A stretch of 64,000 nucleotides of DNA from an uncultured Mediterranea sp. GTDB taxonomy: Bacteria; Bacteroidota; Bacteroidia; Bacteroidales; Bacteroidaceae. The notes below the pieces were generated by a model. It saw only the letters and a list, made by a program, of their open reading frames with translations, had not been told where the DNA came from and ran no database searches. Shown here piece by piece: positions 7,339 through 29,830 of the stretch (the first letter of the stretch is position 1; each line of letters opens with the position of its first letter). A program made the translations under genes and the position numbers. The stretch spans positions 1-64,000 of the forward strand of contig CALZEQ010000004.1 of the NCBI GenBank assembly GCA_945641355.1, read 5' to 3'.

Positions 7339-7464
7339 GCATCTCGGAAAAACTTTTTCATGCAAGCATGAAAGTTCTTCTCTCAATTTTGATAAAAACC
7401 TCACGCTCGGAAGAACAAATAAATTTTCTCTTCGCTCGCTTACTCGGTTTTTTGCACTATCTTT
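7339..7464 (+). repeat. Promoter-bearing dispersed repeat, long form
   Basis: GCATCTCGGAAAAACTTTTTCATGCAAGCATGAAAGTTCTTCTCTCAATTTT...CTCGGTTTTTTGCACTATCTTT; shared with 7479, 21009 and 28738. Confidence 0.85.
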
Positions 7465-7478
7465 AAATAAGATAGGCT

Positions 7479-7546
7479 GCATCTCGGAAAAACTTTTTCA
7501 TGCAAGCATGAAAGTTCTTCTCTCAATTTGCACTATCTTTGCCCGC
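7479..7546 (+). repeat. Promoter-bearing dispersed repeat, short form upstream of trpS
   Basis: First about 50 nt nearly identical to 7339 copy, then TTTGCACTATCTTTG. Confidence 0.85.
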
Positions 7547-7608: not shown

Positions 7609-8703
7609 ATGGCAAAAGAAAAAATCATCCTGACGGGCGACCGCCCCACAGGACGCCTACACATCGGACACTTTGTAGGTTCATTGAGAAGAAGAGTCGA
7701 ACTGCAGAATGCCGGCGACTACAAGAAGATGTTTGTATTCATAGCCGACGCACAGGCGCTGACGGACAATATGGACAACCCCGAGAAGGTGCGCCAGAAC
7801 GTCATCGAGGTGGCGCTGGACTATCTGGCCTGCGGACTGAACCCCGCGAAGTGTACCATCTTCATCCAGTCGCAGATACCCGAACTGTGCGAGCTCAGCT
7901 TCTACTACATGGACCTGGTGACCGTGAGCCGCCTGCAACGCAACCCGACGGTGAAGACCGAGATTCAGATGCGCAACTTCGAGACCAGCATCCCTGTGGG
8001 CTTCTTCACCTACCCCATCAGCCAGGCGGCCGACATCACCGCCTTCAAGGCCACCACGGTGCCTGTGGGCGAGGACCAGGAGCCGATGCTGGAGCAGGCA
8101 CGCGAGATAGTGCGCCGCTTCAACAACATCTACGGCGAGACGCTGGTAGAGCCCGAGATACTGCTGCCCGACAACGCCGCCTGCCTGCGCCTGCCCGGCA
8201 CCGACGGCAAGGCCAAGATGAGCAAGAGCCTGGGCAACTGCATCTACCTGTCGGACACGGCCGACGAGGTGCAGAAGAAGATTCGCAGCATGTACACCGA
8301 CCCCGACCACTTGCGCGTGCAAGACCCCGGCAAGATTGAGGGCAACACCGTGTTCACCTACCTGGATGCCTTCTGCCGCCCCGAGCACTTCGGCCTCTAC
8401 CTGCCCGAATACCCCAACCTGGACGAACTGAAGGCGCACTACCGCCGCGGCGGACTGGGCGATGTGAAGGTGAAGAAGTTCCTGAATGCCATCATGGAGG
8501 AGACGCTGGAGCCCATCCGCACACGCCGCAAGGAGTTCGAGAAGGACATCCCCGCCATCTACGACATGCTGAAGCGTGGCTGTGCCGATGCCCGCGAGGC
8601 CGCTGCCGCCACGCTGGACGAGGTGCGCCGTGCCATGAAGATCAACTACTTTGACGATGCCGACCTGATAGCCGAGCAGGCCCAGCGTTTCCGTCAGGGC
8701 TAA
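7609..8703 (+). CDS. trpS: Tryptophanyl-tRNA synthetase
   Basis: [18 protein letters not shown] (HIGH) and [17 protein letters not shown] (KMSKS). Confidence 0.96.
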
Positions 8704-21008: not shown

Positions 21009-21065
21009 CACTTTTTCATGCGAGCATGAAAGTTCTTCGCTCTATTTGCACTATCTTTGTCCCGC
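21009..21065 (+). repeat. Promoter-bearing dispersed repeat, short form upstream of obgE
   Basis: ACTTTTTCATGCGAGCATGAAAGTTCTTCGCTCTATTTGCACTATCTTTG, near-identical to 7479 copy. Confidence 0.85.
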
Positions 21066-26007: not shown

Positions 26008-26793
26008 CTACTGATAACTGTGCATGCCGCCCAGCAAGCAGTTCACTCCGAAGCGGGTCATCAATACAGTGAGAAAGGCCAGCGCCATGTAGAGATGGAA
26101 ACAGCGGGGACGACGCAGGCAAGGCAATGCCTCTACATGGAACGCTGCGCCATAGACCAGCAACGTCACCAATGCCCACACTTCCTTGGGATCCCAGGCC
26201 CAATAGCGTCCCCAAGCCTCGTTGGCCCAGACGGCTCCCAGGAAGATGCCTGCAGCCAAGAAGAAGAGAGCCGGATAGAGCAGCAGACGGCTGAACAGCA
26301 TCAGACTAGCAGCGGCCCGGTGCCGGCACAGAGCCAGCAAAGCACTGAGCCAGGTGAAGGCCAGCAACGAATAGGCCATCATGATGGACGAGACGTGTGT
26401 GCTCAACCAGGGAGAAGCCAACACGGGTACCAACGGGGTAATCTGCGGATTCATCTCGCCCAGGTATGACACCAGCAGTACACAGCCGCTCAACAGGAAG
26501 CCGAAGGGACGCACAAAGGGAAACCGACGGCTCATCACGCAGGCCAGATGCAACAGCAGTACCGGCATCCTATGCCACACCTTCCTCTGCCACAAGGCAC
26601 AGAGCATCGTCACTCCCAACAGACCCCACAGCAGACAGAATCCTGTGGTATGATAGATGCATCGCTCCACCGTGGGGGTGCCGAGGCAACGTTCCACCAC
26701 CGTGGCCGCTGCCAACAGCCCTATCATACCTACCGTGAGCAGCAAGGCCAGACGCCGCACATCCACGATGAGGCAGAGGTTACAGAGGCGCAT
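26008..26793 (-). CDS. CcsA-type cytochrome c biogenesis protein carrying a truncated ResB-like N-terminus
   Basis: C-terminal WANEAWGRYWAWDPKEVWALVTLLVYGAAFH (WWD motif); N-terminal VVERCLGTPTVERCIYHTTGFCLLWGLL resembles ResB start but the ResB body is missing. Confidence 0.8.
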   Translation of the reverse strand: MRLCNLCLIVDVRRLALLLTVGMIGLLAAATVVERCLGTPTVERCIYHTTGFCLLWGLLGVTMLCALWQRKVWHRMPVLLLHLACVMSRRFPFVRPFGFLLSGCVLLVSYLGEMNPQITPLVPVLASPWLSTHVSSIMMAYSLLAFTWLSALLALCRHRAAASLMLFSRLLLYPALFFLAAGIFLGAVWANEAWGRYWAWDPKEVWALVTLLVYGAAFHVEALPCLRRPRCFHLYMALAFLTVLMTRFGVNCLLGGMHSYQ

Positions 26794-27922
26794 AGGCAGG
26801 CTGCTCTACCCGTTTGATGGCCATACACTCCATCTCCACCAGCCAGGCAGGCCGGCAGACCGGTGCCTGTACAAAGAGTTTGGGCGTGTGGGGGAACCAT
26901 TCGTCAAAGAGGCGTTTCACCACCAAGTAGTCGGCCCCGTCGCGCAGATATACCAGCATCTGCTGCACGTCGTCATAGCCACATCCCGCCTCCTGCAGCA
27001 ATGCCTCCACATTCTGCCACATCCTGCGGGTCTGCAGGCGTATGTCACCGGGATGCAGCACCTCTCCTTTGTTGTTGATGCTGGCTGTGCCTGAGATGAA
27101 GACGTGCCGACGGTCGCCGTACTCCACAGCTGTGCCCCGCTCGAAACTTACACCATATTCATATGTGGGATTCATCCACTCCCTCGCATAGAGGTAGCGT
27201 ATCTGCTCTGGTAACAGTCCTGCCACGGCGTATGTATCCAGCTGCACCGTCACCTTCGGGTCGGCATGGCGGCCTCCTATGCCGGTGCTGGCTATGAAGT
27301 GGGTCTGCGGGGTGAGTCCCTGCGTGACGAAGAGTTCGTTGCGTGCCTTCACCACGCCCGCATAGTTCACGTCCACATTCTGCACAAACAGCCACGTACG
27401 CAGGCAGTGGTCGGCCAGGCGGCATCCCTGCTGCGCCAGCTGCATCACATACTCGCCCAGCAGCAGCCGTGTCTGATACTCGGAATTGGCCGCCCGGTTA
27501 CAGGCTCCCCCGCCCCACAGGTGACGGTATGCCCCATGCTTCGCCTCAAAGAGTCCGCCCGGCAGCATACGGCTCTGCATATCCGTCTGCAGGTAGACCC
27601 ACAGCGCCACCTTGGTTCCACCCAATGGAGGTTGCTCCACCACCGAGAGTGCACACTCCGCCCCCTCGGCAGCCAAGGCCTGTACCCGGTCGGCCTGGTT
27701 GGCTGCATCGCTCAGGAAGTAACGTTTCATCACAGCCACGGCTCCGGCCAGCTGCTCGCGGCGCAGCTGTTCGTAGCCATCGGTCACAGCCTTCAGCTGT
27801 GTCTCGAAGGTAGCCTCCCGGTCGGTAGCCTGAATCATCAAGTGATATTCTGACACGCCCACTCCTCCTTCCAGAGAGGCCAACTGTGCCAGTGCATTGT
27901 TCAATGTATAAGTCTGCATCTG
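26780..27922 (-). CDS. Two-part Rid/YjgF-like family protein
   Basis: C-terminal RidA-like YGDRRHVFISGTASINNKGEVLHPGDIRLQTRRMWQNVEALLQEAGCGYDDVQQMLVYLRD. Confidence 0.7.
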   Translation of the reverse strand, partial: QMQTYTLNNALAQLASLEGGVGVSEYHLMIQATDREATFETQLKAVTDGYEQLRREQLAGAVAVMKRYFLSDAANQADRVQALAAEGAECALSVVEQPPLGGTKVALWVYLQTDMQSRMLPGGLFEAKHGAYRHLWGGGACNRAANSEYQTRLLLGEYVMQLAQQGCRLADHCLRTWLFVQNVDVNYAGVVKARNELFVTQGLTPQTHFIASTGIGGRHADPKVTVQLDTYAVAGLLPEQIRYLYAREWMNPTYEYGVSFERGTAVEYGDRRHVFISGTASINNKGEVLHPGDIRLQTRRMWQNVEALLQEAGCGYDDVQQMLVYLRDGADYLVVKRLFDEWFPHTPKLFVQAPVCRPAWLVEMECMAIKRVEQPAYAPL

Positions 27923-27943: not shown

Positions 27944-28687
27944 TTACTCCATTTCATCTTCTTCCTCTAACTGGTCCATCCAGTCGTCCAGCAACGTCAG
28001 CAGCGACGGCTTGGCCGAAAGGATGTCCCCGTGGTCGTGGCGGATCACTCCGTTGCGGTTGAGTACCGTATGGAGGAAACTCTCCTGTGCACGTCCGGGA
28101 GCTACCAGCAGCTGCGTACTGTCTGCCGCAGACCGTCTGCCCACCAGGGCGGCGTAGCTACGTCCTTCCGTCAGATAGAGTCCGGCAGCTGCCGATGTGC
28201 TTCGCCCGTGACACGCCACGCAATTCTCGTTGAACACCCACCGCTGTATGGTGCTGTACATCTCCACATCCACGGCTCCTGCATCCAGACAGAGGGTGTC
28301 GGCAACCGCTGCCGTTGCATCCATGCCACAGTAGCTCACAATGCGCTTGCGCAAGCGGTTCACCACACACAGTTCCAGCGTGGCCACCTCCTGACCGATG
28401 CCGGATAGGTAGAGGGTAATCTCCCGGCCGTCGGCCGCGGTCTGCGGCAGCACCTTCGAGAGGATGTCATAGTCGCTGTCTGCCCCAAAGCCGGCCACCA
28501 CCACACTGTACTTCTCCGGCCAGCTCTTCATGCCGCTGACGCGGGCGGTCAGCTTCAGCGTCGCACCCTCCTGCGGCCTTATCACGGTCTCCTCATGGAT
28601 GCGTCCGTCGTCACACCCGGCCAAAGAGAGCCATAGCGGGACAAAGATAATGCAAAAAACCGAACAAACGAGAGGAGAGAATCGCAT
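27944..28687 (-). CDS. Lipoprotein with cytochrome c-type heme site
   Basis: Lipobox LAGC; CVACHG heme-binding motif; start placed at internal ATG 28687. Confidence 0.8.
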   Translation of the reverse strand: MRFSPLVCSVFCIIFVPLWLSLAGCDDGRIHEETVIRPQEGATLKLTARVSGMKSWPEKYSVVVAGFGADSDYDILSKVLPQTAADGREITLYLSGIGQEVATLELCVVNRLRKRIVSYCGMDATAAVADTLCLDAGAVDVEMYSTIQRWVFNENCVACHGRSTSAAAGLYLTEGRSYAALVGRRSAADSTQLLVAPGRAQESFLHTVLNRNGVIRHDHGDILSAKPSLLTLLDDWMDQLEEEDEME

Positions 28688-28738
28688 TTGCTCTTCCCGG
28701 CGTGATGTTTTCACCCAAATCGCAAGGAGCACCTTCCT
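28636..28738 (-). repeat. Divergent long-form copy of the promoter-bearing repeat, overlapping a lipoprotein signal peptide
   Basis: Minus strand ...GTGAAAACATCACGCCGGGAAGAGCAAATGCGATTCTCTCCTCTCGTTTGTTCGGTTTTTTGCATTATCTTTG aligns with 7391-7464. Confidence 0.75.
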
Positions 28739-28797
28739 GCCTGCACGCAACGTCTGCCCAAGCCAAATCCCATTGCTAACCATTCGCCTCATAACCG

Positions 28798-29385
28798 TCA
28801 GAATGTATATTGCAACAGCAGGGTGGCCGCATGGGTAGCCAGCCCCAGGTTATCGTTGTCGCGGTCCAGCTGCGTGTCGTGTCCCTTACGGGCGATGTGC
28901 CGAAAAAGTGGATGGGTTCATGATGGGCATTGGTCAGTCCCACAGGCAGAATCAGATGGCCGGCCCGCACGTTGAAGACCGGATGAATCAGTCGGGTGAT
29001 GTGCAGCTGTTCCAATGCCACTTCACCGCCTTTCTCCATCTCCGTCTCATACTCTCCGTTTTCCGAGTTCTCCAGCTCGGTCTCCAACCCCACGCCGCCC
29101 GACTCAAATTCTATCTCCGCTCCCAGCAGCCAGCGGAAGGAGAACTTATAATCCCATGCCAACACGAACCGGGGTATGGCAATATCATTCCGATGCTTGC
29201 GCGAACTTCCGTAAGAGGTACCCGAAAACCGATTGCTATCATAATCCATAAAACGGCTCAGCATTTCACCGTAGCCGCCGAAACGCAATTGCGTAAACTC
29301 TTCCGCCTTTACCGGTTCGGTAGCCCGAAGGCTTCCGTAACAACAGAGGCAGACCGATGCCACTAATAACTTAAAATTGGTTCAT
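28798..29385 (-). pseudogene. Outer-membrane porin-like pseudogene
   Basis: ATG AAC CAA TTT TAA at 29385 becomes MNQFKLLVASVCLCCYGSLRATEP if one T is removed; C-terminal strand GHDTQLDRDNDNLGLATHAATLLLQYTF lies in a different frame from the N-terminal about 165 aa. Confidence 0.75.
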
Positions 29386-29830
29386 CAGGAATTTGAAGTG
29401 ATGGGCTTATGTGTGCAATTCCATTTTACGGTCAATATCTTCTTTCTGCCATTCTGATTAAGAGTATTTTTAGCTCTTATAGCTTGCAGCCCTAAAAGAG
29501 AGTTCTCTGCCAATGTGCATTTATAGTTTGTAGTATATAGCATTATTGATTACCAATGCCTTAGCAAAGGGTAAAAAGGGTATTATATTGATTTACAAAG
29601 CGATATGTCCATCACTCCAAATTTCGGAAGACCCTTAAAATTGTTCATTTTTACTCCTATTTTGGTCTGTGCAAAGGTAAATGGAGTGAAAAAATGGGAC
29701 AATACCTAAAAAAATGTATAATCACGCCGATGATTGAAGCGACATTCCATATTTGTAGGTAGAAGAGCGGATTTTTAAGAGAAATTCTGTAATTTTGCGG
29801 CCAACAACCAACAAAGATCAGACAAAGAGT

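Follow-up and report, generated by a model that had tools for sequence, protein, structure and literature searches.

A diverged copy of a dispersed promoter repeat has probably been turned into the start codon and the N-terminal half of a lipoprotein signal peptide in an uncultured Mediterranea sp. The gene is located in a 64,000-nt stretch of DNA (the window), to which all positions refer. The earlier note had described a minus-strand copy of the trpS-upstream repeat at 28738-28636, and the presence of this repeat in the lipoprotein gene was confirmed. The copy showed 75% identity over 104 nt to the trpS-upstream copy (7361-7464) and 77% identity over 104 nt to the family consensus, which was built from the other copies (E=8.8e-16 in a search of one 3.3-Mb genome). 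Its boundaries had to be moved to 28745-28642. Upstream of 28745, zero homology to the rest of the repeat was detected (shuffle p=1.0), which ruled out an extension in the 5′ direction. The copy runs in frame into the lipoprotein gene, and translation reproduced the peptides that had been quoted, namely MRFSPLVCSVFCIIFVPLWLSLAGCDD from the ATG at 28687, KVLLAIWVKTSRREEQ immediately 5′ of it and KVLLSILIKTSRSEEQ from the consensus and the trpS copy. Likewise, the -7-type box TATCTTTG at the 3′ end of the repeat had been placed correctly within the reading frame. Chance similarity or an assembly error is a very improbable source of these matches. The genome is a draft of 95 contigs and the neighbouring gene fusion is odd, but the E-value was obtained against a consensus derived from other copies, and the copy itself is diverged, hence no collapsed duplicate, and is embedded in a continuous open frame.

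Table 1. Positions of repeat copies, genes and gene remnants in the window
Feature	Position	Strand	Remarks
trpS-upstream repeat copy	7339..7464	+	98% to consensus; trpS starts at 7609
Second, partial module after the trpS-upstream copy	7467-7529	+	TATCTTTG at 7534-7541
Third, short repeat copy upstream of obgE-like gene	21010..21047	+	TATCTTTG at 21052-21059
Cytochrome c assembly gene (PF01578, ResB-CcsA-type) with internal in-frame deletion	26008..26793	-	residues 1-50 and 441-653 of the 656-aa ortholog left
Next operon gene, Rid/YjgF-like C-terminal domain (PF01042)	26780..27919	-	71% identity to G074
Lipoprotein gene, 247 aa from ATG 28687	27944..28687	-	61.5% identity to closest ortholog (G074)
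CVACH, haem-attachment-type CxxCH motif of the lipoprotein	28208..28222	-	CVGCH in ortholog
Lipoprotein signal peptide MRFSPLVCSVFCIIFVPLWLSLAG, 24 residues (predicted)	28616..28687	-	followed by Cys 28615-28613
Diverged copy of the dispersed promoter repeat	28642..28745	-	consensus positions 36-140 of 140
-7-type promoter box TATCTTTG at the 3′ end of the repeat, within coding sequence	28642..28649	-	
Alternative longer N-terminus from ATG 28792 (MRRMVSNGIWLGQTL...)	28746..28792	-	not repeat-derived
Chimeric open frame, part of a different protein, apparently porin-like (by eye), leading out of frame into the porin remnant	28776..29363	-	
Remnant of the porin-like gene that is the upstream neighbour of the lipoprotein gene in relatives	28801..28908	-	C-terminal 36 of 404 residues, 75% identity, ending in LLLQYTF and stop

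The repeat family is composed of two modules, each ending in a TTTGCACTATCTTTG-type stretch. A 140-nt consensus gave 51 matches in the genome with modules of 64-140 nt; in being short, non-coding and scattered in numerous copies, the repeat is like a MITE. We inspected 39 sites other than the lipoprotein gene, the 39th being cut by a contig end. At all 38 sites with enough flank, a co-directional gene followed just 3′ of the repeat, usually within ~180 nt, an arrangement with a chance of ~4e-12 under random orientation. The TAnnTTTG box closed the repeat at nearly all of these other sites and was placed upstream of the gene or RNA start. No other copy with the box clearly inside a gene was found among the 39 sites, leaving the window copy as the only one whose box lies clearly within coding sequence. 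The genes 3′ of the repeat include trpS, which was identified by search, and tyrS-, obgE-, ychF-, ruvB-, recR-, tilS-, truA-, miaB-, fabI- and pcnB-like genes assigned by eye without a search. One copy (L134:1501-1998) precedes the RNase P RNA gene, of which it appears to be the promoter, and the Rfam match to this RNA begins 11 nt past the TATCTTTG box.

Bacteroides primary sigma factor promoters carry a -7 element TAnnTTTG and a -33 element TTTG, the latter not found in Flavobacterium johnsoniae (PMC7366714). The 3′ end of the repeat resembles such promoters in its perfect TAnnTTTG at the expected place before genes. In contrast, an exact TTTG-N18-22-TAnnTTTG arrangement was absent at the repeat copies within the window, which thus differ in lacking an exact -33 TTTG at the usual spacing. 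Repeat matches were detected in 36 of 160 genus genomes. Among the copies in relatives, some stand before the same genes, namely a ychF-like gene and a lipoprotein gene whose ATG lies 5 nt past the box, and others before different genes. The placement upstream of genes, the fit to the -7 element and the copies in relatives make a dispersed promoter the most likely identity of the repeat. An Rfam search of the repeat region returned no match above gathering, and no description of the repeat sequence was found in the papers searched.

Several copies showed further peculiarities. At L126, L136, L145 and L132 as well as at L180-L182, L194 and L199 of relatives, an ATG lies just 4-6 nt after the TATCTTTG-type box, a spacing that would yield leaderless or nearly leaderless mRNAs. 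Comparison of L145 with L180-L182 showed that the distance between box and ATG is kept across species. At L126 and L218 the frame is open through the repeat into the 3′ gene, with a plausible start after the box in each. The frame at L126:1501-1640 reads MKVLLSILIKTSRSGEQINFLSSRLLGFLHYLCC-MKREIIIWILP, and together with the L218 frame around 1572 it may represent further repeat-derived coding sequence. At L216 an open frame likewise spans the repeat, with a plausible start beyond the box. The family may extend beyond Bacteroides; a stretch of a Prevotella MAG near the Rid-like gene (L097:5478-5550) showed a 72% match to the second module.

How the repeat might spread was addressed by inspection of its ends and flanks. 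In the consensus fold, AAGATAG..TGCA pairs with TGCACTATCTT, an end-to-end pairing that is suggestive at a fold z of only -1.55. A regular target-site duplication was not seen by eye in the flanks of about 30 copies. An association with REP-type Y1 transposases, as a candidate mobilising function, was considered and not supported: two Y1-transposase (PF01797) genes are present in the genome, and no repeat adjoins either of them.

The lipoprotein has no Pfam or NCBIfam family match. Its N-terminus reads MRFSPLVCSVFCIIFVPLWLSLAGCDDGRIHEE... on the minus strand, and the predicted signal peptide displays type II features, with a charged n-region (MR...), a hydrophobic core of 3.14 and the sequence L-A-G-C, scored by the lipobox pattern [LVI][ASTVI][GAS]C. 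Codons 1-15 (28687-28643) and the first base of codon 16 are repeat-derived. PLWLSLAG and the Cys are native, so that neither the lipobox nor the last part of the hydrophobic core derives from the repeat. The proposal that the repeat donated the signal peptide therefore holds for the N-terminal half (residues 1-15 of 24) and not for the whole.

At related loci the lipoprotein does not share this signal peptide. In G074, the genome with the closest ortholog, the operon order is porin-like protein, lipoprotein, Rid-like protein and ResB-CcsA-type protein, and the lipoprotein begins with MKKLILILALLVTMFASCDDGR 32 nt past the porin stop. The sequence ahead of the C-[DE]-[DEN]-[GR] motif was compared at 45 related loci, some of them close relatives of one another. 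In 43 it is an ordinary signal peptide with an ATG start, for example MKKLILILALLVTMFASCDDGR, and in the other two no ATG was found in range. The ortholog signal peptides measure about 16-27 residues. None of the 45 loci encodes a signal peptide resembling that of the window, and the repeat was absent at the signal-peptide site in every one, so that the orthologs do have an unrelated signal peptide, as the proposed donation would predict. The window leader fits among them in its properties: its core value compares with an ortholog mean of 2.73 (sd 0.39; range 1.77-3.37), and its 24 residues are inside the ortholog length range of 17-27.

The reading frame is also open in the 5′ direction to an ATG at 28792, and the start codon is not fixed by sequence alone; translation could instead begin there. 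This start would be the ancestral one (MRRMVSNGIWLG...) if the repeat had been inserted in frame into an old signal peptide, thereby interrupting it and creating a 59-residue leader. The frame is indeed open from 28792 through the repeat, and the sequence 5′ of the repeat is not repeat-derived. Nevertheless, we regard such an insertion as improbable, since a leader of 59 residues, charged in its middle part (KTSRREEQ), is far outside the ortholog range, whereas ATG 28687 gives 24 residues. Between the -7 box and the Cys there is no in-frame start except one TTG, which would leave no signal peptide.

Conversion of the promoter repeat into a start and partial signal peptide would have required several local changes, and the donation stands only with these. 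In the frame of the lipobox the consensus reads AAA TAA ATT TTC TCT CCT CTC GCT TAC TCG GTT TTT TGC ACT ATC TTT with one stop (TAA) and zero starts. The window copy reads CAA ATG CGA TTC TCT CCT CTC GTT TGT TCG GTT TTT TGC ATT ATC TTT; one base was deleted, the stop was lost and the ATG gained occupies its former position. Three hydrophobic substitutions (A>V, Y>C and T>I) converted FSPLAYSVFCTIF to FSPLVCSVFCIIF, each making the residue more hydrophobic. Random substitution of an equal number matched this gain in 0.2-0.4% of trials (simulated p 0.002-0.004) in a test picked post hoc with the sequence already seen. The T>I change (ACT>ATT) is present in three intergenic copies as well. In total, the window copy differs from the majority consensus at 22 positions, compared with 3-13 in the other aligned copies. 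Its AT>GC to GC>AT ratio was 15:5 versus 58:62 in the other copies (Fisher p=0.03), demonstrating a drift to higher G+C that the sister copies do not share. The codon-position bias of the window copy is weak when taken alone (p=0.11). The differences are unevenly distributed, with one in the last 21 nt and 21 in the remainder; retained promoter use and coding both fit the better conservation of this promoter core.

The locus is clearly rearranged. The chimeric frame upstream of the gene gave no family match and is a probable pseudogene, and about 390 internal residues are gone from the ResB-CcsA-type gene. A second PF01578 gene was found at G000:C9:17294-17878. With a porin remnant on one side and a shortened CcsA-type gene on the other, the locus may be decaying. 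This raises the question whether the repeat simply still acts as a promoter that serves the Rid-like and CcsA-like genes of a decaying operon, with the lipoprotein untranslated or cytosolic and the signal-like reading being a by-product of T-rich promoter DNA. The intact TATCTTTG box and 21-nt core, the placement of every other copy as a promoter and the deleted or fused upstream genes together with the shortened CcsA-type gene would agree with such a role. Moreover, each of the three sense frames of the T-rich repeat strand encodes hydrophobic stretches. This explanation is a serious rival. We nevertheless consider it rather unlikely, because the stop was lost, an ATG was gained where needed and hydrophobicity was raised, and because the G+C rise sets the window copy apart from the others. 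The mature lipoprotein also speaks against it: the CxxCH motif is kept and the protein is nearer to that of G074 than any other ortholog is, whereas this does not apply to the downstream Rid-like gene, which is the relatively faster-changing one. In the mature part, pN and pS against G074 were 0.26 and 0.81; dS was saturated, and hence no dN/dS ratio is given. With the mature part conserved and the Rid-like gene relatively more diverged, a plain decay of the lipoprotein gene was likewise disfavoured.

Given where -7 boxes lie relative to transcription starts, the embedded box would be expected to initiate a transcript near 28638, past the ATG at 28687. Such a transcript cannot encode the signal peptide, and the mRNA of an expressed lipoprotein must therefore begin upstream of 28687. 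A further box, TACCTTTG, is located at 29672-29679 on the minus strand and could drive a longer transcript. The embedded box may additionally serve the two downstream genes.

Altogether, the exaptation of a promoter repeat is our preferred reading, and the earlier interpretation of a donated signal peptide appears to be supported with the refinements described. In this reading the repeat is a dispersed promoter, a short and imperfectly palindromic element with the -7 box GCACTATCTTTG at its end, which the lineage carries ahead of dozens of genes, mostly housekeeping ones. Insertion or recombination may have brought one copy into the 5′ end of the gene for an envelope lipoprotein at a time when the upstream operon partners of this gene were being lost, displacing the original start and the first part of the signal peptide. 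This copy would then have evolved as coding DNA by loss of the in-frame stop, emergence of the ATG and accumulation of hydrophobic residues, so that the T-rich strand would now encode the n-region and most of the h-region before the native lipobox. We infer this order of events, the selection of the changes and the production and export of the protein from ATG 28687; the new signal peptide is known from one genome of the species.

Rickettsia palindromic elements (RPE) are repeats of about 150 bp that occur in frame inside protein-coding genes (PMC10969869), and the window copy resembles them as a short repeat in frame within such a gene. The genes into which RPEs have fused are many and unrelated, and this source does not describe RPEs as promoters (PMC10969869). 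In contrast, the element described here is a putative promoter repeat that would contribute, at the extreme N-terminus, both the initiation codon and a portion of the signal peptide, while its other copies checked lie upstream of genes. Promoter-bearing MITEs include the Correia elements of Neisseria, mostly situated immediately upstream of genes, and BrickBuilt of Porphyromonas (PMC10969869). In-frame repeats in genes and promoter-bearing small repeats are thus each already known (PMC10969869). Compared by description and not by sequence, Correia elements and BrickBuilt share with the present repeat the small size, the dispersal and the promoter sequences; the present repeat differs by having no demonstrated target-site duplications or mobilising transposase. 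Homologous promoter regions before unrelated genes in one genome have reportedly been termed mobile promoters, or promoter propagation, by Matus-Garcia, Nijveen and van Passel (2012 and 2014), and the repeat family resembles these in its arrangement. Their concept is said to concern regulation and not the donation of coding sequence. To our knowledge, and within the part of the literature searched, an exported protein whose start and leader stem from a promoter repeat is a new combination.

A more speculative and rather doubtful extension is that such a promoter repeat may be recruited in two capacities. With its T-rich strand pre-adapted for a hydrophobic leader, a promoter arriving at the start of a gene could turn into a signal peptide, and one stretch would provide a start codon, a leader and possibly a live internal promoter, which would make the family a recurring source of new export signals. 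The lipoprotein gene offers a readable case of regulatory DNA that probably became a protein-targeting sequence, with the state before (consensus), the native state (orthologs) and the state after all at hand. Furthermore, it draws attention to a family of putative promoters that closely resemble one another and precede dozens of genes, mostly housekeeping ones, in gut bacteria of the Bacteroides type.
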